Source of the DNA: Natronococcus occultus SP4
GTDB lineage: Archaea > Halobacteriota > Halobacteria > Halobacteriales > Natrialbaceae
Direction: 5' to 3'
Assembly (NCBI RefSeq): GCF_000328685.1
Contig: NC_019974.1
Coordinates: forward strand, 2,533,001 to 2,597,000
Length of the DNA: 64,000 bases
Under the pieces are notes generated by a model. It saw only the letters and a list, made by a program, of their open reading frames with translations. It had not been told where the DNA came from and searched no databases. This document shows positions 11,461 to 32,208 of this stretch, piece after piece. The translations under genes were made by a program, and so were the position numbers. The number at the start of each line of letters is the position of its first letter. Within the stretch, counting starts at the first letter, position 1.

Positions 11461-14415
11461 TCAGTCCGCGAGCCCGGCGGCCGGGGCGAGCGAGGACGCA
11501 GTATCGTCGGCGCCAGCGTCGTCTGCGCCTGCTTCGGCGTCCGCGTCGTTCGCTGCAGCGTCGTCAGCGTCCTCGTCGGCGGTTTCGGTGTCCGCTTCGG
11601 CAGCGTCCGCGTCGTCGCCGTCCGTTTCGTCCTCGGTCGCGCCGTCGTTCTCCGCGTCCTCGAGCTCCGTCTCCTCGAGCTCGACCTCGACGGTCTCGCC
11701 GTCGACGACCGCGCTCTCGGGAACCTCGAGGTCGCCCTCCTGGGGCGTCTCGCCCTCGACGGTTACGGTGTAGTCGTCGACGGCCTCGACGGCGCTTTCG
11801 GTGTAGCCGTCCTCGACGTCGAGCTCGTCGTCGGTCGCGTACGGCACCGTCAGCTCGAACTCCCCGTCAGCATCGACTTCGGTCTCTTGTTCGTACGTGA
11901 AGCTGCCGCGGTCGGTGCCGGAGTCGAGCTCCAGTTCGGCGGTCACGACGTCGCCCTCGTCGGCGTCGGCGTCGGCGGTGCCGACGATCGTCGCGCCTGC
12001 GACGCGCTCGTAGGTCTTGACTCCCGCCGTCTCGCGATCGTCGATGTACTCGACGTCGACGTCGGGGCTCTGCTCGAACTGCGAGAGCTGGACCTCCGCC
12101 TGCTGGAGTGGCTGGTTGAACGCGACCTGGTGCTGGCCGGTCTCGTCGGTGAGCACCTCGTCGGTCTCGGGATCGATCAGTGCGTAGCTGACGAACCCGG
12201 CGGTGCGCTCGTCGTTCTCGTGGACGAGCCGGTAGTGGTCCATCCCCGTTGCGTCGTCGAAGTAGAGGTCGGCGACCATCGTCTCCTCGTAGGGAACCTT
12301 GAGGCGGTCGTCGACGTCCTCGCGATCGATCGACTCGCCGGGCTCGACGTCTGGCGTGACGTAGTGGTCGTAGTCGGGCCCCGACCAGGCGGTCATCGCG
12401 CTGAACTTCCCGCCCGCCATCTGGTCGTCGATCATCACGTACCGCAGCTGTTCGTCGGCGTCGTCCTCGATCGCGGTCTCGAGTTCCTCGAGCGGACGCA
12501 CGTTGTCGTCGTCGTCCAGCGGGTCCTCGCCGGCCGCGATCGCCTCGAGGATCAGCTCGGCCTCCCGCTCGGACTCGGCGGTGAGATACGCCGAGGCGGT
12601 CTCGGCGTTCTGCTGGAACGGGTTCGAGTGGGGAATCCGCTCGGCCTGGGTCGTGATCAGGTGGCCGTAGTCCCACCACGACATGACGCCATAGGCCCCC
12701 GCAGGGTAGTCGAAGTCCCCGTCCTCGGGGTAGTCGTAGCTGCCGTAGTACTCGAGCTCATCGGCGTAGTCGGCGCCACCGTAGTTACCGGGTTCGGGCG
12801 TGTTCGCCTCGAGCCAGTGGGTCGACTCCTCCCAGACCATCGCGTCGGGGTGTGGCCCAGTCGCCTCGCCGCGCTCGACCGCCGTATCGCCGTCGGCGGC
12901 GACGACGGGAAGCAGCGGCGCGAACAGGAGGACGACGACGACGAACAGAATGATGATCTGGTAGGTCTCGATCCCGCGGAGCGCTTGCGTGCCTCGCTGG
13001 AGGTCGAGGTCGAACAGCCGCAGCACGTCGGCGACGAAGGCGGCGTTGACGACCGCGACTGCGAGGACGAGATAGTACGAGAAGCGGATCTGGGTCGCGG
13101 ACATGCTGAGCAGGAACAGCGACCAGACCAGGATCAGCGTGTACTCCGCACGGTGCTCGCGGCCGAGCAGCGGACGGGCGGCCAGCAGCACCAGTCCGGC
13201 GAGCATCGTGTAGAAGGCGGTACCGAACTCGTCGAAGACGTGTGCCGTGAAGTCCTCAGGAGGCTGGGCCTCCTGGATGGTCAGCGTCCCCGCGTCGGGA
13301 TCGAGCGGGATGATCCGACCGGTGAGGTTGCCGACGAGCGTGTCGTAGAACTCGGGCAGCACCAGCCACATGACCGCGAACGTACCGACGATGAGCGCGG
13401 CGATCGCGCCCGGGTAGAGCCGGCGATCGATCCCGCGGGCGTTCCACTGGCGGGCGAACCAGGCCATGAACAGACAGCCGACGGCGACCAGCGCCGCGGT
13501 TCCCGGCTGGAGGTAGCCAAAGCTCGTGACGCTCGTGCCGGGCTCCTCGATCAGCAGGGCCGTTGCGACCGCAGTCACGCCCAGGGAGACGGCGCCGACG
13601 AACGCGACGTGGTCGGGGGAGATCCCGCGGACGTAGTCGAGACAGAGCTGGATCGCGAAGAAGACGCCGAAGATCCCGATCAGAACGACGCCGGGGGGCC
13701 AGACCCAGATGTACAGCGCGAGCGCGACGCCCGCAAGGACACTGTAGAGCGTTGGCTCCCGGAGCGGGGCCCAGTTACGGTCGGCGGCAAGTTCGTAGAT
13801 CGGCTGCTCGCGCTCGGCGACCCGCAGCGCGACCGCCATCCCGAGGACGGCGAGCGCCATGAACAGCACCTCGGCGACGTGGTGTTGAAGCTGGCCCGCA
13901 GTGGTCCGAACGAGGAACTGGCCAGGCGCAAGCGCCAGCAACACGACGGCGACGAGTCCACCGACGGTTCCGCCCAGCCGCCGACCCAGGTAGAAGACGG
14001 GGATCGCGACCAGCGCCGCCATCGCCGGCACCGCGAACAAGGAGACGGTGTAGAGAGTGCTCGACGACGGATCGCCGAGGCCGACGATCATCGCGGCGGT
14101 GACGATCAGCTGGTCGAACAGGGTTCCGAACTGGCCGACGTAGTTCCCCGTCGGGAACCCAGTCCAGACCTCGTAGGGCATCGTCTGGGGGTAGTTCTCG
14201 GCGGTCCACTGGATCGTGCGCCAGTGGTACCAGGAGTCGATCCCCGCGAGCGCAGGGGTGCCGTCCTCGGTGAGGAACGCCTCGTAGGACTGGGTCCTGA
14301 CCCAGAACATAAACAGCATCACGGCCCCGACGACGGGGACGTGGTACCACTCCGCCCACGAGCCGAGGACGGACGACTCCGTCCGCTCCTCGGCGCGCTC
14401 GGTCTCCGTACTCAT
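11461..14415 (-). CDS. aglB: Oligosaccharyltransferase AglB (STT3 family)
   Basis: A 984-residue membrane enzyme that moves the glycan from dolichol phosphate to Asn in N-X-S/T sequons of S-layer and other exported proteins. About a dozen hydrophobic helices fill residues 25-540. The catalytic WWDYG motif is at 580-584, preceded by the extracellular YPAGAYGVMS, and the first-loop acidic motif is near GIDSWYHW. The C-terminal region contains beta-sandwich-like repeats and ends in an extremely acidic Asp/Glu/Ala-rich tail of about 70 residues. The start is ATG 14415 (MSTETERAEE), not the upstream codon, because a TTATTC TATA-like box lies about 30 nt before it. Divergent from an AglG-like transferase, as in other haloarchaeal agl loci. 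Confidence 0.96.
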   Translation of the reverse strand: MSTETERAEERTESSVLGSWAEWYHVPVVGAVMLFMFWVRTQSYEAFLTEDGTPALAGIDSWYHWRTIQWTAENYPQTMPYEVWTGFPTGNYVGQFGTLFDQLIVTAAMIVGLGDPSSSTLYTVSLFAVPAMAALVAIPVFYLGRRLGGTVGGLVAVVLLALAPGQFLVRTTAGQLQHHVAEVLFMALAVLGMAVALRVAEREQPIYELAADRNWAPLREPTLYSVLAGVALALYIWVWPPGVVLIGIFGVFFAIQLCLDYVRGISPDHVAFVGAVSLGVTAVATALLIEEPGTSVTSFGYLQPGTAALVAVGCLFMAWFARQWNARGIDRRLYPGAIAALIVGTFAVMWLVLPEFYDTLVGNLTGRIIPLDPDAGTLTIQEAQPPEDFTAHVFDEFGTAFYTMLAGLVLLAARPLLGREHRAEYTLILVWSLFLLSMSATQIRFSYYLVLAVAVVNAAFVADVLRLFDLDLQRGTQALRGIETYQIIILFVVVVLLFAPLLPVVAADGDTAVERGEATGPHPDAMVWEESTHWLEANTPEPGNYGGADYADELEYYGSYDYPEDGDFDYPAGAYGVMSWWDYGHLITTQAERIPHSNPFQQNAETASAYLTAESEREAELILEAIAAGEDPLDDDDNVRPLEELETAIEDDADEQLRYVMIDDQMAGGKFSAMTAWSGPDYDHYVTPDVEPGESIDREDVDDRLKVPYEETMVADLYFDDATGMDHYRLVHENDERTAGFVSYALIDPETDEVLTDETGQHQVAFNQPLQQAEVQLSQFEQSPDVDVEYIDDRETAGVKTYERVAGATIVGTADADADEGDVVTAELELDSGTDRGSFTYEQETEVDADGEFELTVPYATDDELDVEDGYTESAVEAVDDYTVTVEGETPQEGDLEVPESAVVDGETVEVELEETELEDAENDGATEDETDGDDADAAEADTETADEDADDAAANDADAEAGADDAGADDTASSLAPAAGLAD

Positions 14416-14560
14416 TAGGTGCCACGAGAGTGATGTGCCGAATAAGCTTTCCCATACCGTTCGGATTATTTTACTGTCATTGTTGATGGATTGTTCTCTC
14501 GGAACGCGGAGGCCGATCGACGACAAAGTTTATTCCGTCCAGATCGAAACCGGGCGTCCG
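14416..14560. promoter_or_regulatory. Divergent aglB / aglG-like promoters
   Basis: A 145-bp spacer with two opposed TATA-like elements. TTATTC on the reverse strand lies about 30 nt before the aglB start. TTTATT on the forward strand (about 14529-14534) lies about 28 nt before the glycosyltransferase start at 14561. Both spacings predict leaderless transcripts and were used to choose the two starts. Confidence 0.55.
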
Positions 14561-15520
14561 ATGAAGGTCTCCGCCGTCGTCTGCACGTACGCGATGGAGC
14601 GCTACGACGTCTTTTCGGAGTGTGTCGACAGCGTCCTCGGCCAGACCTACAACCCGCTCGAGGTCGTCGTCGTCGTCGACGGTAACGAGGCCGTCTTCGA
14701 GCGCGTTCGTGAGGAGTACGGTGACCACGAGGACGTCGTCCTTCACTGTAACGACGAGAACCGGGGGATCTCCTACAGCCGGACGCGAGGGGCCGAGATC
14801 GCGAGCGGCGAGGTCGTCGCCTTTATCGACGACGACGCGGTCGCCGAACCCGACTGGATCGCGGAGCTGGCCCGCGTCTACGAGGAGACCGACGCGATCG
14901 CCGTCGGTGGCCACGCGAAACCCGACTGGGTGACCGAGAAGCCCGACTTCTTCCCCGCGGAGTTCTACTGGCTCGTCGGCTGTGACGAACGGGGAATGGG
15001 CGAGCACATGGCGGAGCTGCGCAACACCTACGGCTCGAACATCTCCTTTCGCCGGGACGTCTTCCTCGCGGTCGGCGGCTACGACGAGAACACGGGTCGG
15101 AAGGGCGACCGCCACATCCAGGCCCACGAGGCCCCGGTCTGTATCCGGATGGCAAACAGGTACGGCAAGGGCGTGATCTACAACACCGACGCCGTCGTCC
15201 ACCACAAGCTGTTCGAGTACCGCGGCGAGTTCCGGTGGCTCGTCTTTCGCTCGTTCTGGCAAGGGTACTCCAAGCGGATCATGGACCTCCTGTTGCCCGA
15301 GGCCGCGGGCGACAAGAACGAGTATCTGAAGCAGTTACTGCTGGAGTTCGTCCCCTCGCGGCTCCGGGAGCTCGCCCGCGACCCCTCGAGCGCGAAAGTC
15401 AAGCAGCTCGTCTCCATTTTCGTTTTCACGGCTGCTGTCGGCTTCGGTTATCTTTACGGGTTCCTGCAGTCGGACGACGTCCTCGTCAGCGAGGACGCCG
15501 ACGGGACGTCGGCCGCCTGA
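14561..15520 (+). CDS. GT2 glycosyltransferase, AglG-like
   Basis: A 319-residue family-2 glycosyltransferase that would add a sugar from a nucleotide donor to a dolichol-phosphate glycan at the cytoplasmic face. The GT-A start MKVSAVVCTYAMERY, the EVVVVVDGN strand (34-42), GISYSRTRGAEIASG (69-83) and the metal-binding FIDDDAVAEPDW (89-100) are all present. A single hydrophobic segment near residues 283-303 (SIFVFTAAVGFGYLYGFL) probably anchors it. The start at 14561 leaves a TATA-like box about 28 nt upstream; the frame is open further back but lacks conservation-like sequence. Divergence from aglB resembles the aglB-aglG neighbourhood of Haloferax, where AglG is the second-position hexuronosyltransferase. 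The exact sugar here is not deducible. Confidence 0.85.
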   Translation: MKVSAVVCTYAMERYDVFSECVDSVLGQTYNPLEVVVVVDGNEAVFERVREEYGDHEDVVLHCNDENRGISYSRTRGAEIASGEVVAFIDDDAVAEPDWIAELARVYEETDAIAVGGHAKPDWVTEKPDFFPAEFYWLVGCDERGMGEHMAELRNTYGSNISFRRDVFLAVGGYDENTGRKGDRHIQAHEAPVCIRMANRYGKGVIYNTDAVVHHKLFEYRGEFRWLVFRSFWQGYSKRIMDLLLPEAAGDKNEYLKQLLLEFVPSRLRELARDPSSAKVKQLVSIFVFTAAVGFGYLYGFLQSDDVLVSEDADGTSAA

Positions 15521-15988
15521 GAGAAGTTCGGAACGGATCGACGTTCCCTATCATCAGCCAAATTCGGCATTCGATTCGTAGGGCGTGCGCACCTAACGCC
15601 GTCTCTTCCGGAAAATTCTTTGAGATGTTTGTTCGCACTACCTATACAGCCCTTGGTGTCTGCAGGGCTGTCTCAGCGAATCAACCACTCGCCGAATGGT
15701 TCTTCCGGTATTTTCCCCAAATAATCTGGTTCTAATACTCGTGGGCTTGTTCCACTACGTTACAGAAGAGCGACGGCAGATGTAGTCTATCGACTCCGAC
15801 AACTCAAGCATCATGTCCATGAACTCAAGGATACCGTGCCCTCGACCGGCGAAGCATCCGTGCGTTTGGTGGAGCTAATGTATTCGATTGCGTTGTTGCC
15901 TTCCTCCCAAACTCAAGCGTCCCGTGACGTGTGCTCCAAGCCTGTACGGTGTAGCTCACCGTTCACGTGTGATTTCAGAAACATCTAG
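15521..15988. other. Gene-poor, lower-GC spacer
   Basis: The 468-bp stretch after the AglG-like gene has clearly lower GC than the flanking core genes. It has no open frame with a haloarchaeal codon pattern, and I found no RNA gene or strong repeat in it. It may be decayed mobile DNA beside the two insertion sequences; nothing specific is recognisable. Confidence 0.5.
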
Positions 15989-16162
15989 TTAGTCAGATGA
16001 AAGGTGGTTGAGACCGATAGCAACGACTGTGATTAGTACACCCACCCAGATTAAGATGTAGGCGGGTCCCTCGGGGGTAGGGCCAATTTCCCGGAGTATC
16101 AGATCGATTCCAGCGACTATCGAAATTTGAAAGCCGAGTATCCCGAGTAATGTTTCGTCCAT
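15989..16162 (-). CDS. Small two-helix membrane protein, unknown
   Basis: A 57-residue frame from ATG 16162 to TAA 15989: an acidic start MDETLLG, a helix around ILGFQISIVAGIDLILREIG, a turn PTPEGP, then a second helix AYILIWVGVLITVVAIGL and the tail NHLSSD. Two spans joined by a short loop suggest a small hairpin membrane protein with both ends on the same side. The frame is open for another 77 codons upstream, but that part is not protein-like, so I use the internal ATG. It sits in lower-GC DNA directly beside an insertion sequence. No family recognised. Confidence 0.5.
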   Translation of the reverse strand: MDETLLGILGFQISIVAGIDLILREIGPTPEGPAYILIWVGVLITVVAIGLNHLSSD

Positions 16163-16306
16163 ATATGAATTACACAACCTCTTCATTAATATGTTCTTAT
16201 AATATGTGTGATGCCAAAGAGAATATTTCGAGTCCATTGTTGAGGTTTTCCACCTTGTTGTATCCTTCCTATGGGTCAAAATACATTCTTGAGAGCATAC
16301 CGAAAC

Positions 16307-17239
16307 TGCTCTATTGAAAACGGACGACAGCGGCGAGGCTAGGCTGTGCTTGGTAACAAGCTGAAGCCGAGGAAAGGAGATTATGGCGATCAACCTCCTC
16401 GACTTCGCTCAAAACTGTCGACGCCTGGCTAAACAAGCGTTTGGGTCACACGCGGGGAAACCTGCCTCCGGCGGGCTTCCCCGCTGGGTCCATGTCGTCG
16501 TGCACTGCTTACGAGTCGAAGAAGGCTGGACGTTTCCGGAAGTCATCGATCGGCTCCGCCTCATGCCAGGGATCTGCGAGCTACTGGATTTGTTACCGGA
16601 AACTCTGCCCGATCCAACGACGTTCTGGCATTCGTTCGATCGATACGCGATGCGCGTCTGGCGGGCGTTGCTGCGCGTCTCCGCGCAGCAACACCCGAAT
16701 TCTGGGCGCGTCGCTCTCGACAGCACGTTCTTCGAACGGGGACACGCCTCACACTACTACCTCAAACGCACCGATCGTACGATCCAGACGCTCAAAGTGA
16801 CGACATTGACGGATACGGAGTCGTTGGCAGTGCTCGACGTCCACTGTTCGGCCAAATGGCGTCACGACACGATACTTGGCCGGAAGCTTGTCCGTCGAAA
16901 TGCGGACGAGCTGGTCTCTGTGGCGGCTGATAAGGCGTTTCATAATTGGCCGATACGCTACGAATACATGGCTGAGAGCATCGAGCCACTTCTCTTGCGA
17001 AGTGGCTCGACGCTCGGCCCAGTTCTTCACAATACGTTGACCAGATCGAATGGATACACGCAACGGTGGATGGCTGAAACGTCGTACTCCTCGACAAAGC
17101 GGTCGTTGGGGTCTGAGCTACGCTCACTCGGTTGGTACAGACAGTTCCGTGAGATCGTCCTCATGTTTGCTGTTCACAACATCGAAAATCTCAGTGAAAC
17201 GCTCTAATTCCAGTGCCGTATGGCGTTTTCAATAGAGCA
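16307..17239 (+). mobile_element. IS5-family insertion sequence
   Basis: A 933-bp element bounded by a perfect 16-bp terminal inverted repeat: TGCTCTATTGAAAACG at 16307-16322 and its complement CGTTTTCAATAGAGCA at 17224-17239. It contains one complete transposase gene. The bases outside the two ends do not form a target duplication. The right end touches the first base of the ISH8-type element at 17240. Confidence 0.9.
16383..17207 (+). CDS. IS5-family transposase
   Basis: A 274-residue DDE transposase that fills the IS5-type element. The N-terminus (LLDFAQNCRRLAKQAF...GGLPRWVHVVVHCLRVEEG) and the block RVSAQQHPNSGRVALDSTFF carry the first catalytic Asp (VALDS). VSVAADKAF holds the second Asp. 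WMAETSYSSTKRSLG, near residue 236, holds the catalytic Glu with the family's S-x-x-KR signature. The C-terminus ends EIVLMFAVHNIENL, as in full-length haloarchaeal relatives. No frameshift or internal stop is seen, so the element may still be active. Confidence 0.93.
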   Translation: MAINLLDFAQNCRRLAKQAFGSHAGKPASGGLPRWVHVVVHCLRVEEGWTFPEVIDRLRLMPGICELLDLLPETLPDPTTFWHSFDRYAMRVWRALLRVSAQQHPNSGRVALDSTFFERGHASHYYLKRTDRTIQTLKVTTLTDTESLAVLDVHCSAKWRHDTILGRKLVRRNADELVSVAADKAFHNWPIRYEYMAESIEPLLLRSGSTLGPVLHNTLTRSNGYTQRWMAETSYSSTKRSLGSELRSLGWYRQFREIVLMFAVHNIENLSETL

Positions 17240-18628
17240 CTTTAGCTAAGCCTCAGCTGCCGGTTTGATGGCGGTAGCGAGTTGTTCCTGGAGAACCGGC
17301 CGTTGTTTGTGGATCTTCTGTGCGTCGGCGATCAGCCGATCAAGCAGTGGCGGTGGAGAATACCCAAGGTAGCCACTCAACCGGTAGAGAATGAGCTGGG
17401 CGTGCGACCGGAAGGTCGCCGCCCAGCGTTCCGGCGGAAACACGAGATCATCATCTGCGTGTTCGATGACCAGACTAAGCAACTCACGGCTCACAACCAA
17501 GGACAACAGCGCTGCGTACAGCAGAATCTCTACGACGTGCTTCTTCGTTGTATCGAACTCATCCAGTCTGTACTGCGTCTTCAGCTCCCGAAACAGCAGT
17601 TCTACTTCCCACCGGCACCGGTAGATCGTCGCTAGGTCCTCCGGCAGGAACTCTTCGCGCGAGAGATTCGTGATGTACAAATGGTAGTCGTCGGCGTCCT
17701 CGTTGCGGACGCCGACGACGCGGAACCGTTTCGTATCACGTGACTGCGTGCCCGCGTACTCTCTCCGGTCAAACTCGATCTCAACTTCGACGTCAATGTA
17801 CTTGCGACAGAGATCGTCCACGACGTCGAAAATTTTCTTCCCCTCCAAGGGAATGGCGCGGCCGCGCCATTCCCGAAATTCGTCGGTTACAACCGGGTTA
17901 GAGCTGCGTTTCAGTCGACTCACGAAGTAGCCGTCGTTCTCGTCGATCAACGCGAACCGCCGGTACTTGAAATAGGTCAGATCGAAGATCGCTAGCCGAC
18001 CTTCGAGCCACGATCCTGTCTCGAACTGCGTGCTGTCGTGTCTTTTCTCATCTGTGACGCTGAACCGGTCGATCGTCTGCTCAGTGACGTTGTGGAGCAG
18101 GTGGAGCCGTGCTTCAGCCTGCTCCTCACGGCGACCTTCGTACTCCTCAGAAAGCAACTCATGGAGCCGGAGAACCGTTCCATCTGCGATCATCACGTCT
18201 CTGAATCGGTTGAACTCCTCTGAGACGGTGTGAGGGACAGCAACCTCGTCGAGCCCGTACTCGACGAGGTCGCGGAGGTACTCTGTGAGAGTCGGCGTCA
18301 ATCGCTGATAGAAGCCTCCTGCGGACAATGTCTTGTCTGCAGTCGAGTTGTAGCTCCGTCTGAAGCTGGCGAGCGTTCGGCTTCGCCGGCGGCGCAAGCC
18401 GAACGCAAATGACCAGACGAGCGGTGGAATCTGCAGCTTCCGATCGCGCTCGACCACGCCGACGGCATCGGCGTGGTCTTCGAGCGCTTCAGATGGAAGG
18501 AAGTTAGTGAGATGGCGTTCCACTTCCTGTGAGGAGGGGTTAGAGTGCACATCTTCCGCCTCCTCATTCCTTCCGAAAAGTAACTCCGATAAGCCGCCGC
18601 TGTCGTGCGGTTTTGCGCCTAACTAAAG
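17240..18628 (-). mobile_element. ISH8-type (IS4 family) insertion sequence
   Basis: A 1389-bp element. Its ends form an imperfect inverted repeat: CTTTAGCTAAGC from 17240 and, reading inward from 18628 on the other strand, CTTTAGTTAGGC (10 of 12 match). The size is close to that of ISH8-group elements. It abuts the IS5-type element without a single base between them. The base sequence right of 18628 (ACGGATGC) is not repeated to the left of either element, so no target duplication remains. Confidence 0.82.
17246..18550 (-). CDS. IS4-family transposase, ISH8 group
   Basis: A 434-residue transposase starting at GTG 18550. DDE-type blocks are VMIADGTVLRL (first Asp), LAIFDLTYFKYRRFALID, and the IS4 'YREK'-type signature YRCRWEVELLFRELKTQY near residues 305-322 with the catalytic Glu. 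The frame is uninterrupted and the stop lies 6 nt inside the left element end. In-frame codons before the GTG (reading ...LLFGRNEEAED) look protein-like but have no start codon before a TAG. The true N-terminus could therefore have been damaged, or the GTG is correct. Confidence 0.9.
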   Translation of the reverse strand: MHSNPSSQEVERHLTNFLPSEALEDHADAVGVVERDRKLQIPPLVWSFAFGLRRRRSRTLASFRRSYNSTADKTLSAGGFYQRLTPTLTEYLRDLVEYGLDEVAVPHTVSEEFNRFRDVMIADGTVLRLHELLSEEYEGRREEQAEARLHLLHNVTEQTIDRFSVTDEKRHDSTQFETGSWLEGRLAIFDLTYFKYRRFALIDENDGYFVSRLKRSSNPVVTDEFREWRGRAIPLEGKKIFDVVDDLCRKYIDVEVEIEFDRREYAGTQSRDTKRFRVVGVRNEDADDYHLYITNLSREEFLPEDLATIYRCRWEVELLFRELKTQYRLDEFDTTKKHVVEILLYAALLSLVVSRELLSLVIEHADDDLVFPPERWAATFRSHAQLILYRLSGYLGYSPPPLLDRLIADAQKIHKQRPVLQEQLATAIKPAAEA

Positions 18629-18944
18629 ACGGATGCTTCCATCAGCTACTGGAGATGTTGAGAGGGCCGTGCTGAATCTACAGCGGGGATGTGGCCCCCT
18701 CCGGAAGTCGATTGCCACAGGACAGGAGCCGTTCAGTACAGCGCGTCAATATGTAAACGCGGTTGGCTTGTGCAACCCCTCCAATTATAGACGAGATTCA
18801 ATCGGCGGAAACTGCTCGCATCGGGAACGGCTCTTGGAGTGGCTGGACTGTTTGGGTCACTGTCAACGGCCGCGGACGAACACGGCGAAGAAGCGGAGAC
18901 GCAGGACGTTGAAGTTGAGTACGAGTATCGGCTCGAAGGGGAGG

Positions 18945-18992
18945 GAGATGATGAACAGCTCGAAGAACGACTCGAACTATCCTCGGGTGAGT
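18945..18992 (+). repeat. 48-bp direct repeat, copy 1
   Basis: Begins GAGATGATGAACAGCTCGAA and encodes GDDEQLEERLELSSGE. It matches the second copy at 19317-19364 with two base differences, and marks the first tandem unit of the repeat protein. Confidence 0.85.
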
Positions 18993-19316
18993 ACCATTAC
19001 AGCGGGGACGAGGATGAGCCGCAGAACTGCTACGTTACGTTCAGTGCCGAAAACGTGAGCGACGATGAAATCAGGGTTGACTTTTGGGCTACCGTGGATG
19101 ACCATAGTACGTGGGACACGCAGAGCCTACTCGACCCGGGCGAGTCCGGCGGTGCAAGGCTGGAGTCACTCAATCCCGATAACTGTCCCACCGATCCGGA
19201 TCAGGTTACGATCACTGCGCGATCCCCGTACATCGGGGACCCACACGAACCTCCCGAAGACGACGAAGGCGAAGACGGGGACGTTGAGTTCGAATATACG
19301 TATACAGTTGAGCAAG

Positions 19317-19364
19317 GAGATGACGAACAGCTCGAAGAACGACTCGAACTGTCCTCGGGTGAGT
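19317..19364 (+). repeat. 48-bp direct repeat, copy 2
   Basis: Begins GAGATGACGAACAGCTCGAA and encodes the same peptide as copy 1. The low divergence points to a recent internal duplication or to gene conversion. Confidence 0.85.
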
Positions 19365-20228
19365 TCGACTCTTGCACCGTCGAAGCGGATGTTGAAAACC
19401 TAAGTGATGATGAAGGAATCAGCTTCTACCGCTATGCTGTCGTAGATGGGAACCCGACGCACGAAAGTCAAACTTCACTTGATCCCGGTGAATCAGACTC
19501 CATAAGTATGGAGATAAATCAGGGTGTAGCGGATGAGTGTCCCGATGATCCGGATCAAGCAACGGTTCATACATGGGTGGCCAGCATCGGAGAATCAGAC
19601 GAACCCCCCGAGGACGACGAGGAGCCCGAAGACGAAGAGGAAGCTGACGACGATGAACCCAAGGACAAAGACGATCTCGACCTCTCGGTGTCCGCACCCG
19701 ATTCGATCCCGTACGAAGAAACGGCCGACCCGAGCGAGGACGCCGCCGACTTCTGCATCACGGTGACGAACCGCGGCGACGAAACGGTCTCGGTCGACGG
19801 TCAGTTCGAAATCGGCCCCATCGACGAACCGCTCCCGCTCGATCTAGAACCCGGCGAGACTGAGACCACCTATTACGGCGTCATGAGTCGAGACCTCGGT
19901 CCCGGCGATCACGAGTGGACGGTCACCGCGAACGGCGAAACCGAAACCGAAACCGGAACGCTAACCGTGACCGACGACGAGGAGTGCTGATCGGCTTCAG
20001 ACGCCGAATAGCGGGGATGGTATAAAACAAACGAACCCCGTGCTGAACGCATCTTCTGTCTTCTCTATCCAGCAGGATTTTCCTGGCAGCTATCGGCGGA
20101 CTCGATTGCTGCTCTGATACCTACATGGCCTGTTCCTAACACAAGTTTCAGATGAAATTCTGGATAACGAAACCACGTTGCTATCTACTGGGGAATTTGA
20201 ACGGGTTGTACGGAGAGAGTTCGCCAGC

Positions 20229-20312
20229 TATAGTAGTCACTGAAAGTCAGTGCACACTCGATCGCACGACCGCTGTGCGATCGGTGTGCAAACGGTTTCA
20301 GTTGTGACTATA
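20229..20312. repeat. 84-bp imperfect palindromic element
   Basis: A long inverted repeat in the 336-bp gene-free gap 19991-20326. The core CGATCGCAC (20259-20267) pairs with GTGCGATCG (20275-20283) around the loop GACCGCT. Next outward, TGCACAC (20251-20257) pairs with GTGTGCA (20284-20290). ACTGAAA pairs with TTTCAGT, and the outer arms TATAGTAGTCAC and GTGACTATA nearly match. Its extent and A/T-rich TATAGT ends suggest a MITE-like or REP-like element rather than a terminator. The rest of the gap (19991-20228) shows nothing recognisable. Confidence 0.7.
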
Positions 20313-20326
20313 ATGTGACCCATCAC

Positions 20327-20929
20327 TCACGTGATTTCGCCTACGGCGTCCGATAGATCGTCCTCGTCGTGCCAGTCGAGAACACGGTCTTCAGCCGCCT
20401 CTTCGAGAGCAGCCAAGTGGGATGCAGCCATTCCGTTATCGTACTTCTCGCGCGTTCGCTTCTCGCTCTCGTAGCTCCGTTTGAGCAACCAGAGAATGTC
20501 CCTCACGTGCATCTGGTGGTGGTACAGGTAGCCCAGTTCCCACACGTGCCCGCCATCGAAGTCCTCGAGAACCCCGACGATATGGGACGCCATCGCCGAG
20601 AGAACATCGAAGGCCGGTGCCCATAACTCGATCTCGTCGCTAGTGAAGCCGAAGTCCTCGAGACGGAACGCTGACGCCTCTCTGCGAGCGTCCAACTGCC
20701 GACAGACCTGCAACCGTCTCGATCCAGGTCCCTCCTCCCCACCGCGTCCGACGATCAAATACCTGCGCTCGGCTCGCTTGATTGCATCGAACTGGTCACT
20801 CCCATGCAATTTATTTTTTAACTGTGCGTGCTGGTGAGGAGTGAGCTGGAGCCGTTCCTCATCGACGATCTCGTTTGGGTCGATACCGTCGATGTACCCC
20901 GGTTCGTCAGCGTCCGAATCACCCGTCAT
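20327..20929 (-). CDS. Uncharacterised acidic protein, divergent partner of a wHTH regulator
   Basis: A 200-residue soluble protein from ATG 20929. An acidic start (MTGDSDADEPGYIDGIDPNE) is followed by a helical region with LTPHQHAQLKNKLHG and the tract RYLIVGRGGEEGPGSRRLQV. A middle block holds LEDFGFTSDEIELWAPAF. A long helical part with HHQMHVRDILWLLKRSYESEKRTREKYDNG and SHLAALEEAAEDRVLDWHDE follows. No catalytic motif or membrane span is visible and I recognise no family. It diverges from a winged-helix gene across a 128-bp spacer that contains palindromes, so the two are probably co-regulated and may act together. The lower-GC flank to the left suggests acquired DNA. Confidence 0.65.
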   Translation of the reverse strand: MTGDSDADEPGYIDGIDPNEIVDEERLQLTPHQHAQLKNKLHGSDQFDAIKRAERRYLIVGRGGEEGPGSRRLQVCRQLDARREASAFRLEDFGFTSDEIELWAPAFDVLSAMASHIVGVLEDFDGGHVWELGYLYHHQMHVRDILWLLKRSYESEKRTREKYDNGMAASHLAALEEAAEDRVLDWHDEDDLSDAVGEIT

Positions 20930-20970
20930 ACTGGCTGATGGATGATTTTCGGAATCAGTATACGTATAGG

Positions 20971-21055
20971 TTGTGGGACAATTTTGGGAAACAATTGAGG
21001 TAACAGTTGAGTCTATCGACCGAGTGTTTATGTCCGAGGGACACATTACTGTCCC
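20971..21055. promoter_or_regulatory. Operator-like palindromes between divergent genes
   Basis: GGGACA (21038-21043), CATTAC, TGTCCC (21050-21055) is a perfect inverted repeat ending 2 nt before the winged-helix start ATG 21058. Nearer the other gene, TTGT-GGG-ACAA (20971-20981) repeats the GGGACA half-site and is followed by CAATT copies. TTTATG at 21027-21032 fits a TATA position for a leaderless start at 21058. This resembles autoregulation by the encoded winged-helix protein, which is inference. Confidence 0.5.
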
Positions 21056-27467: not shown

Positions 27468-28739
27468 CTATCCGCGCAAGGCGGAAGGCGTGTACTCGCC
27501 GTTCACGTTCAACGTCCCTGACTCGAGGGCCAGTTGACTGGTGGCCCATCCACCGCGAGACTTCTGCCCGCGATGGATATACCCGCAGTATCGTTTCGCA
27601 ATGTTCTTCGCCGCGTTGTAATCCGCGTTCACCTCATACCCACAGTCCTGACACGCGAACTCTTTGTCGTCGCGGTTGTCCTCGTGGGTAAACCCACAGT
27701 GCGAACACCGCTGACTCGTGTACGCAGGATTCACCGTATCCACGAACAACGCCGTGGATTCAACCTTGTACTCCACGAGTTCCACGAACTTCGCATACGT
27801 CCACTGCTGGAACTTCGACTCGTTCGCAATGTTCTCGCGGATGTGGTCAAGGTTTTCAAAAATAATGCCGTCTACATCCGTGGCTTGGGCTTCCGCAATG
27901 AGGTCGTTGGCGCGGTTGTGGAGCCAGTCCAGCGACCAATCCGAGAACCGACTGCCGATGGACTGAATCGTGAGGTGAGCGGACCGTGTACCCGTCTGTT
28001 GCAGGCGGGCACGGCGTTTCTCGTACTGGTCGCGTTTGTGGGTGAGGTAGTCCGCACTGCCGATGAACTTTCCCGTGGAGGTGACGGCGAACGCGCCAGT
28101 CACGTTCAGGTCAACACCGAGAACCACTCCGTTCTCGGCACCATCATCGTCGTGACTGGCTTCTTGGCGTTCCGTTCTGTCAACCGTGTAGTCGGGGTTC
28201 TTCAGCGTGACGTGCAGGTAGAACGTGTCATCCTGCTCGTCATACTGGAGCGTGGCGCTCGACGCATCCCAGTCGTCACTCTCGTAATACCTGCCGAACG
28301 GCGTGTCTTCGCGTTCGTCCTCGGGTGGGAGGACGTACTCAGTGGTGACTCTGCCGTTCGGCGTGGACAGCGTGGCGTGATCATCGTTGAACGACGCAGA
28401 CCGTTTGTCGTAGACGACGCTCCACGAGTCAAACTCTGGTTGACTCGTCTGTTCGCCTTGCTGCAGTTTTTCGACGCCTGCATCGACGGCTTCGATGGCG
28501 CGGCGGATGCCTTTCTGGACGAGGTTGGCGGTGAGGTCGGTTTCCTCACGCAACTCGTCGTACAGGGAATTTTCGGCTTTGCTCTTGCTGGTGACACAGT
28601 AGTCGTCGTAGCGCCACGCCCACTCGCTGGTGCGGTTGGCGCAGTGCAGGAATTGGCTTTTGGTTTGATGGAGGTCGCCACGACGCTCTTCGGACACGTC
28701 GAGCTTGATTGGAATAGTGCGTCGTGGCGCGTCGTCCAT
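27468..28739 (-). CDS. tnpB: TnpB, IS605-type RNA-guided nuclease
   Basis: A 423-residue protein. The N-terminal part has a helix-turn-helix/WED-like region (LHQTKSQFLHCANRTSEWAW). The RuvC domain shows the catalytic Asp in VVLGVDLNVTGAF, the catalytic Glu in IIFENLDHIRE, and the final Asp in EVNADYNAAKNIAKRY. The target-nucleic-acid zinc finger is CSHCGF...CQDCG with four cysteines between them. Length and order fit full-length haloarchaeal TnpB (the IS1341 type, ancestor group of Cas12). The C-terminal 40 residues read toward the right-end hairpin. All three RuvC acidic residues are intact, so nuclease activity is expected. Confidence 0.95.
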   Translation of the reverse strand: MDDAPRRTIPIKLDVSEERRGDLHQTKSQFLHCANRTSEWAWRYDDYCVTSKSKAENSLYDELREETDLTANLVQKGIRRAIEAVDAGVEKLQQGEQTSQPEFDSWSVVYDKRSASFNDDHATLSTPNGRVTTEYVLPPEDEREDTPFGRYYESDDWDASSATLQYDEQDDTFYLHVTLKNPDYTVDRTERQEASHDDDGAENGVVLGVDLNVTGAFAVTSTGKFIGSADYLTHKRDQYEKRRARLQQTGTRSAHLTIQSIGSRFSDWSLDWLHNRANDLIAEAQATDVDGIIFENLDHIRENIANESKFQQWTYAKFVELVEYKVESTALFVDTVNPAYTSQRCSHCGFTHEDNRDDKEFACQDCGYEVNADYNAAKNIAKRYCGYIHRGQKSRGGWATSQLALESGTLNVNGEYTPSALRG

Positions 28740-29897: not shown

Positions 29898-29960
29898 GGC
29901 CTCGCCGGGGACGTCCTCGTCGTCTCGACGGACCGATCGGAGTCGACCACTGGGACCGAA

Positions 29961-29988
29961 CACCCCCACACCGGATTTCAGATGAAAT
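29961..29988 (-). repeat. ORB 1
   Basis: Read on the minus strand: the TTTCATCTGAAA palindrome, then TCCGGTGT and a G-run (GGGGG, as CCCCC at 29963-29967). It is the leftmost box and is strongest in the G-run. Confidence 0.85.
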
Positions 29989-30039
29989 CGATCGAACGAG
30001 GGGTGGGGGAGAGGGTGGTGGCCTCGGCGGTCGAATGAG

Positions 30040-30185
30040 ACCAAACCGGCGCATAAACGAATTAGATGGACTTAGAGAGATTCTCGATGGTGCTGTACCT
30101 CTTACTGCTACGTTACTTTCTGAACTCTATTATATATCTTACTCTAGCAGTAATCTAGTAGTAGTAGTGTAGTGAGAGAATCCAT
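30040..30185. other. AT-rich duplex unwinding element
   Basis: An AT-rich tract between ORB 1 and ORB 2, with TCTATTATATATCTTACTCT near 30122 and a run of TAG/TAGT triplets (30150-30172). It contrasts sharply with the GC-rich flanks. No coding pattern. It is the likely site of helix opening. Confidence 0.75.
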
Positions 30186-30389
30186 CTTCAGGCTCCTGCA
30201 GGCACGAAGTGATATACCGCTGCCTTTCTCCTGGTATCTTTATATTAGACGCTGGCTGCCTGGCGTGAGAACGCAACCCACGACGCGTTCGGCTCGCTCG
30301 CGATCGATCCGATTCGCTCACGAGCGGGTCAGTTCGCTCACAGGGTACGTCGCGAAACCGATCACCCGCCGTCCTCGGTTTGCGGGCCG

Positions 30390-30410
30390 ACACCGGGTTT
30401 CAGATGAAAT
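30390..30410 (-). repeat. ORB 2
   Basis: Minus-strand copy with TTTCATCTGAAACCCGGTGT, one base different from the consensus and without a G-run after it. Same orientation as ORB 1. Confidence 0.8.
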
Positions 30411-30588
30411 CGATCTTTCAGACCCTGACGAACTCGATATCTATGGCCTGAGGTTCTTCTCCCGAATCGTTCCGCCCGGTTTGCAACTACCTACCTCTCT
30501 CGCTTCCGTCCGGTTTAGGACTGTTCGACCGCCCGGATCCGACCTCCTCCTCGCAGCGCTCGTCTCCCACCCTCCTCCCGTTTCGGGC

Positions 30589-30617
30589 ATTTCATCTGAA
30601 ATCCGGTGTGGGTGTGG
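30589..30617 (+). repeat. ORB 3
   Basis: Plus-strand copy: TTTCATCTGAAATCCGGTGT followed by GGGTGTGG. First of three close copies spaced at 54 and 46 bp. Confidence 0.88.
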
Positions 30618-30642
30618 TGGAGGTGGTGCCCTGCTCTCGCCC

Positions 30643-30671
30643 ATTTCATCTGAAATCCGGTGTGGGTGGGG
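30643..30671 (+). repeat. ORB 4
   Basis: Plus-strand copy identical to ORB 3 over TTTCATCTGAAATCCGGTGT, followed by the G-run GGGTGGGG. Confidence 0.88.
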
Positions 30672-30688
30672 ACGAACCGCGCTCACGC

Positions 30689-30710
30689 ATTTCATCTGAA
30701 ATCCGGTGTG
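30689..30710 (+). repeat. ORB 5
   Basis: Plus-strand copy with TTTCATCTGAAATCCGGTGT, followed by GAGAG instead of a G-run. Confidence 0.85.
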
Positions 30711-30801
30711 AGAGTCGCACCCAGTGTGCCGACGGCCCATCTCCAGCGGTCGGGACCACTCCCCGGTTACCCACCACTCGTGGAGGGAAAGACCTAAGGA
30801 A

Positions 30802-30822
30802 AATTCATCTGAAAGACGGTGT
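30802..30822 (+). repeat. ORB 6, degenerate, at the orc1 start
   Basis: AATTCATCTGAAAGACGGTGT, two or three changes from consensus, ending directly against the orc1 start codon at 30823. Its position could let Orc1 repress its own translation start or promoter. Confidence 0.65.
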
Positions 30823-32208
30823 ATGCCTTTGCACGCGGAGGGGACGGGGACGCTCGGCGAGTACGCCGCCGAGCACGGCGCGGTCGCCCACTCTCGCTCC
30901 AAGTCTCGCGACGATCCGCTCTCGGTGTTAGACGAAGAAGACCGGATCTTCGCGAACGAGGACCTGCTGCGGATCGACCACGTCCCCGACCAGAACAAGA
31001 TCGTCGGCCGGAACAACCAGATCGAGACCGTCGCCCGACGGCTCAAGCCGACGATCACCGGCGGAACGGGCAAGGGGACGTTGCTGCTCGGGAAGTCGGG
31101 CTCCGGAAAGACGCTGGTCACCCGCTACGTCAGCCGCGAGGTCGTCGGCCGCGGCCGGGAGAACGACGTCCGGATCGGGCGGGCGGTGATCGACTGCGCC
31201 CAGCGTCGCTCGGAGGTCCAGACCGTGATTCACCTCGCAAAGAGCCTGAACGAACCCGAGAAGACCGGGATCACGATCCCCCACTCCGGGATCGCAACGG
31301 GGGCGTACTACGATCGGCTTTGGTCGGTCATCGACGAACTGTACGACGCGATCATCGTGGTCTTAGACGAGATCGACCGCCTCGCACCCCCTGACGACGT
31401 CGAGAACGTCCCGCCCGAGGAGGCCGACGACAGCAAACTCCTCATGCAACTCTCACGGGCGGGCGAGGAGAACGACGTCGACGCGAGCATCACCGTCATC
31501 GGAATCAGCAACGACCTGAAGTACGGCGATCGGCTCGACACCCGCGTCGAGAGCTCCTTTTCGCCCGACGAGATCGTCTTCCCGGCCTACGACGCCAACC
31601 AGCTCGGTGACATCCTCGAGCGGCGCCGCGACGCCTACCGCGAGGACGTCCTGACCGACGACGTCATCCCACTGTGTTCGGCGTTTTCCGCCCAGGAACA
31701 CGGCGACGCGCGCCGGGCGATCGACCTCTTCCGGCTCGCCGGCGAGGTCGCAAGGGACAACGACGCCGCCCAGGTCACGGAGAATCACGTCCGGGTCGCG
31801 AACGACGACGCCGAGGTGACCCGGATCCAGGATCTCATTCGGGGCTGTCCCACGCAGGCGAAGATCGCGATCGCGGCGCTTGCGACCATGGACGAGTTCT
31901 CCGACCGCTCGGCGTTCAAGGCCACCGAGATGTATCGGGTCTACCGCGCGTTCGCCGAGGCGATCGACGCCAACGTCCTCGGAAAGAAACGCATCACCGA
32001 CCAGCTGCGGGAGTACGAGACGCTGAAGATCATCACTATGACCCGAACCAGCGACGGCTACCGCGAGGGGACCTACCTCCAGCTATCGCTGCTCGACGAT
32101 TCGAGTCTCCTGCTCCAGACGATCGGACTCGACGAACGCTGTGCGAACATTCCGATCGACGGACGGATGCGCCAACGGATCCGTTCGATCGTCGGATCGT
32201 CGCACTGA
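30823..32208 (+). CDS. Orc1/Cdc6 replication initiator
   Basis: A 461-residue initiator that binds ORBs and unwinds the origin. Walker A is GKSGSGKT (90-97), Walker B is VVLDEID (179-185) and sensor 1 is in VIGISND (about 236-242). The arginine-containing sensor 2 region is HGDARRAIDLFRLAGEVA. A C-terminal winged helix follows (LIRGCPTQAKIAIAALATMD ... RITDQLREYETLKII). All ATPase residues are intact, unlike the Orc1/Cdc6-like protein at 10.2-11.4 kb. I use ATG 30823 because the frame upstream runs through ORBs. It directly follows the origin, as initiator genes do in haloarchaea. Confidence 0.96.
   Translation: MPLHAEGTGTLGEYAAEHGAVAHSRSKSRDDPLSVLDEEDRIFANEDLLRIDHVPDQNKIVGRNNQIETVARRLKPTITGGTGKGTLLLGKSGSGKTLVTRYVSREVVGRGRENDVRIGRAVIDCAQRRSEVQTVIHLAKSLNEPEKTGITIPHSGIATGAYYDRLWSVIDELYDAIIVVLDEIDRLAPPDDVENVPPEEADDSKLLMQLSRAGEENDVDASITVIGISNDLKYGDRLDTRVESSFSPDEIVFPAYDANQLGDILERRRDAYREDVLTDDVIPLCSAFSAQEHGDARRAIDLFRLAGEVARDNDAAQVTENHVRVANDDAEVTRIQDLIRGCPTQAKIAIAALATMDEFSDRSAFKATEMYRVYRAFAEAIDANVLGKKRITDQLREYETLKIITMTRTSDGYREGTYLQLSLLDDSSLLLQTIGLDERCANIPIDGRMRQRIRSIVGSSH

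Follow-up and report, generated by a model that had tools for sequence, protein, structure and literature searches.

The finding of ORB-like repeats beside an orc1/cdc6 gene in Natronococcus occultus SP4 raises the question of whether this locus is a replication origin, and of which kind. The contig that carries the locus is 4.01 Mb long and is regarded as the chromosome; the window, that is, the whole 64-kb stretch of DNA that was analysed, covers its 2.53-2.60 Mb portion. Our best explanation, with a probability of about 0.85, is that the locus is a secondary chromosomal replicator-initiator cassette with an ORB in the predicted promoter of its initiator gene. What was seen directly for this explanation are the sequence elements, the conserved layout, the domain content and the family distribution.

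Anatomy of the locus

As shown in Table 1, a 20-bp box, TTTCATCTGAAATCCGGTGT, is present six times at positions 29968-30822, with 0-3 mismatches in each copy. The number of copies expected by chance was 0.00 (100 shuffles of the window), and outside the locus the 4.31-Mb genome holds a single match, with three mismatches, near another orc gene. The six ORB-like repeats described in an earlier note on this DNA, two on the minus and four on the plus strand, were borne out, with the strands as stated there and far above chance. Several ORBs, at least two of them inverted, are found at the locus, as in origins of the orc1/cdc6-associated class.

Table 1. Features of the locus, with positions in the window. 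For the ORBs, the presence of the halophile G-string at the end of the box is also given.
Feature	Position	Strand	Description
ORB1	29968..29987	-	exact copy; G-string GGGGGTG outward of the box, kept in nearly all relatives
G-rich tract just inside ORB1	29999..30021	+	inverted repeat I1
AT-rich tract, putative duplex-unwinding element	~30050-30245		38-43% GC; between ORB1 and ORB2
ORB2	30390..30409	-	1 mismatch; weak G-string
C-rich tract just inside ORB3	30564..30579	+	inverted repeat I1, complementary to the ORB1-side tract
ORB3	30590..30609	+	exact copy; with G-string
ORB4	30644..30663	+	exact copy; with G-string
ORB5	30690..30709	+	exact copy
Conserved block, putative BRE/TATA of the orc1 promoter	30784..30798	+	family consensus GGGGAAAGAACTAAG
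ORB6	30803..30822	+	3 mismatches; no G-string; -20 to -1 of the orc1 start codon, between the promoter block and the ATG
orc1/cdc6 initiator gene	30823..32208	+	461 aa; AAA+, lid and winged-helix domains

The Orc1 protein is encoded by an intact ORF with a Walker A (GKSGSGKT) and a Walker B (VVLDEIDRL) motif, scored 381 bits against TIGR02928 and could be aligned, for the greater part of its sequence, with the archaeal initiators of solved structure 2V1U and 2QBY. Its closest homologues, 96-98% identical, are nearly all from Natronococcus. ORF, motifs and TIGR02928 match confirm the intact orc1/cdc6 gene with Walker motifs claimed before, and that such a gene, whose product has both the AAA+ and the winged-helix domains, lies right beside the ORBs is a further trait of the origin class. 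The start of the gene had been placed just past the sixth copy, and the gene does adjoin ORB6, but there is no gap between them, ORB6 ending at 30822 and the ATG starting at 30823. An upstream GTG start (30724) was rejected because the relatives retain GGTGT immediately before the ATG, and beyond around -40 the upstream sequence is unconserved.

Within the AT-rich tract, the least stable 150 bp (30052-30201) rank as the second least stable 150-bp stretch in the window. In each of the 22 loci compared, ours among them, the 100 bases richest in AT within the interval from ORB1 to the gene were located between ORB1 and the next box, and the ORB2-ORB3 interval is not notably AT-rich. The locus thus has an AT-rich region flanked by ORBs (ORB1 and ORB2), as in other origins of the class; since the tract sits between these two minus-strand copies, its earlier description as flanked by two copies on the left and four on the right was wrong. 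The functional pair is likely made up of ORB1 and, on the opposite side, ORB3/ORB4, because the AT tract adjoins ORB1 and because ORB2, in addition to its weak G-string, was not detected in 5 of the 22 loci of the layout comparison.

The inner G-rich/C-rich inverted pair (I1 in Table 1) had been overlooked. Its tracts are placed like the G-rich inverted repeat of Haloarcula hispanica oriC1, an element that enhances that origin (PMC3936714). In the relatives, the tract inside ORB1 is C-rich on the ORB strand (mean C fraction 0.42), and the ORB3-side half is clear mainly in Natronococcus and often missing elsewhere, in such a way that the inner repeat is incomplete outside this genus, unlike that of H. 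hispanica oriC1 (PMC3936714). The latter is also similar in its outward G-strings with an AT tract between them, but its ORB sequence and Orc1 family are different and it has two ORBs instead of the six found here (PMC3936714).

Distribution in relatives and plasmids

Around 30 relatives from several families keep the same layout, with ORB1 on the minus strand, the AT tract, ORB3-5 on the plus strand, ORB6 and the ATG. Together with the locus-specific ORBs and the occurrence on plasmids, this layout strongly supports that the locus belongs to the class of orc1/cdc6-associated origins, as had been proposed. A close homologue was found in 12 of 61 related genomes: the nine members of the genus, counting this genome, and three further genomes in which the identity is 74-92%. 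Most genera of the family do not have the cassette. In relatives from Natronococcus, Natrialba and Halopiger it lies 5' of aglJ; eight other genomes of the family have aglJ without the cassette, and in seven of these the downstream neighbours are also the same.

Plasmids of Haloferax, Haladaptatus, Halalkalicoccus, Haloarcula and Halorussus carry Orc1 homologues that are 79-86% identical, with ParA genes near the homologue on five of seven plasmids; on the 114-kb plasmid of Haloarcula halophila, the family homologue is the only full-length Orc1/Cdc6. Two copies from Halobaculum are more distant (62% identical). We infer from these comparisons that a plasmid-type origin may have spread and been captured by (or lost from) chromosomes. 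The haloarchaeal orc/cdc6 origin families, in the sections of Wu et al. (2012, PMC3528665) considered here, also have an adjacent orc1, family-specific and inverted ORBs with G-strings, an AT tract, a patchy distribution and links to plasmids. Unlike those families as described in these sections, the present one has an ORB that directly abuts the start codon.

Some peculiarities were seen at and around the cassette. In a Haloarchaeobius locus (L035) one ORB is amplified as five 63-bp tandem units, at -473 to -221 of the orc start, and in Natrialba taiwanensis a UDP-sugar dehydrogenase-like gene, identified by eye, lies between orc1 and aglJ (L025:7486-8820). In the window itself, a TnpB-family RNA-guided nuclease gene (27468-28739, minus strand) separates two genes that are direct neighbours in relatives from Natronococcus (L019, L021), and is probably an insertion. 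The region around 14000-21000 has a GC content of 0.54-0.60, clearly below the rest of the window, and is possibly acquired.

Relation to the other candidate origins of the genome

The genome contains 18 Orc1-like matches, and the same contig has ORB-like repeats at around six further orc genes. A classical oriC1-like site is located ahead of an orc gene at C1:314-661 (L058:314-661); its CTCCAGTTGAAACGAAGGGG boxes are inverted and enclose a G-rich inverted repeat. Identity of our locus with oriC1 was rejected, given its different ORB, its patchy distribution and the position of the oriC1-like site; the oriC1-type Orc1 and ORB common to all haloarchaea are not those found here. Because of the oriC1-like site and of the other ORB-bearing orc genes on the contig, the locus is a secondary origin cassette, one candidate origin among many, and is not ancestral. 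Its complete anatomy and intact initiator would suit the main active origin of the chromosome, but this role is very improbable for a cassette missing from most genera of the family, in a genome where the classical oriC1, with ORBs and inner repeat, is present elsewhere.

Two of the other orc loci show particular arrangements of repeats. The orc gene of L004 has ORBs (TTTCACCGGAAACGTGGTGT) both upstream and downstream, resembling the titration layout of H. hispanica oriC2. In the upstream region of L013, AACAGCGGAAA is present nine times on the minus strand and once on the plus strand, with a spacing of mostly 42 bases; this repeat set resembles a titration array, and the orc gene that follows it has a TGA within its matched frame.

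All the parts considered necessary are intact at our locus, which makes it likely, as judged from its sequence, that it is competent as an origin. The GC skew, sampled coarsely at 40 points of 20 kb, was flat and noisy, with no trend. In other haloarchaea some predicted origins fire and others are dormant or inactive (PMC4595724, and the sections considered of PMC3528665), and such an origin can become inactive when the cdc6 promoter is lost (PMC4441112). It is quite conceivable, at somewhat less than an even chance, that the cassette is a dormant backup, intact and competent but normally unfired since oriC1 and other origins dominate. Its secondary location, its plasmid-type relatives and the many further origin candidates of the chromosome fit such a state, and so does the precedent of dormant origins with the same anatomy in Haloferax mediterranei, where oriC4-cdc6H and oriP1-cdc6L are also secondary, orc-linked and probably acquired (PMC4595724). 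However, all the genomes of the genus that were searched have kept the cassette intact, which suggests use, or at least selection.

The ORB at the start codon of orc1

ORB6 occupies positions -20 to -1 of the ATG in 32 of 32 family members aligned. Among 22 less redundant loci, its distance to the ATG had a standard deviation of 0.0, compared with 38-101 for ORB1-ORB4. Its columns average 1.67 bits versus 0.14 upstream, in a test built on related sequences, in which conservation partly reflects descent. Upstream of ORB6, a promoter-like block, GAAAGAACTAAG, is conserved, with around 1-1.8 bits per column in its core versus a mean of 0.14 just upstream. A strong TATA match is absent from this conserved -39/-25 block, which has CTAAG and not TTWT. 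The usual block is missing from the loci L031, L044 and L104, and in L044 the orc1 match is also split, suggesting that this locus is decaying.

An ORB at a conserved position inside a predicted core promoter region is the arrangement expected for autoregulation. In Haloferax volcanii, 72% of the protein-coding transcripts have no leader, and BRE and TATA elements, the classes used for the block in Table 1, precede the start (PMC4983044). The orc1 promoter is, from its sequence, probably leaderless too. As the start region of such a promoter would be the Orc1 site itself, we propose, at about even odds, that Orc1 may repress its own promoter through ORB6. A second orc family of the same genome (L004) has a similar GAAA...CAAG block, followed after around 15 nt by its own last ORB, which stands a few bases more distant from the ATG there than ORB6 does from that of orc1; most other orc genes in the genome have no ORB at the start codon. 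In the literature, nothing direct was found on ORB-mediated autoregulation in haloarchaea, which does not prove its absence.

ORB6 could also be conserved solely through promoter and start-codon constraint, with no regulatory binding. The box overlaps the core promoter region and two of its positions deviate in Natronococcus (AAAGACGG), but its invariant columns are the ORB core (TTCAT-TGAAA, GGTGT), which is no known promoter element, and we consider this explanation rather unlikely. Hardly probable at all is a former origin whose Orc1 is kept as a transcription regulator, with the boxes as operator or titration sites. The position of ORB6 within the promoter region of the gene would agree with it, as would the precedent of Sulfolobus islandicus Orc1-2, a non-initiator that binds its own promoter (PMC9738581). 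Against it, other promoters of the genome carry no boxes, the AT tract and its flanking outward boxes are conserved, and plasmid-borne relatives exist.

For the replicator-initiator cassette we propose the following working, in which the initiation steps are modelled on known haloarchaeal origins and the autorepression is inferred here only. Orc1 from the adjoining gene would bind ORB1 on one flank and ORB3, ORB4 and ORB5 on the opposite flank, all of which face outward; the AT tract, located between ORB1 and ORB2, would open, and MCM would be loaded there. Orc1 on ORB6 would block its own, probably leaderless, transcription, in such a way that the initiator level would be capped. The locus is ordinary in kind and complete in anatomy, and belongs to a known origin class. 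That it represents a widespread, plasmid-related origin family with built-in negative feedback, in which an ORB locked at -20 to -1 lets Orc1 silence its own promoter, is a tentative proposal that falls just short of even odds.

In bacterial oriC-dnaA regions, DnaA boxes are found in the dnaA promoter. The likeness, initiator sites in the own promoter of the initiator, is an analogy only, as the DNA sites are unrelated and the initiator is different. If true, the ORB6 feedback would parallel, in archaea, the autoregulation of dnaA or the copy control of plasmids, and would make it easier for these cassettes to reside in chromosomes without over-initiating. The control of each initiator in haloarchaea with many orc genes is poorly understood, and a promoter ORB that is base-exact across genera would offer a specific and easily tested control element, with plasmid homologues in the genetically tractable Haloferax.
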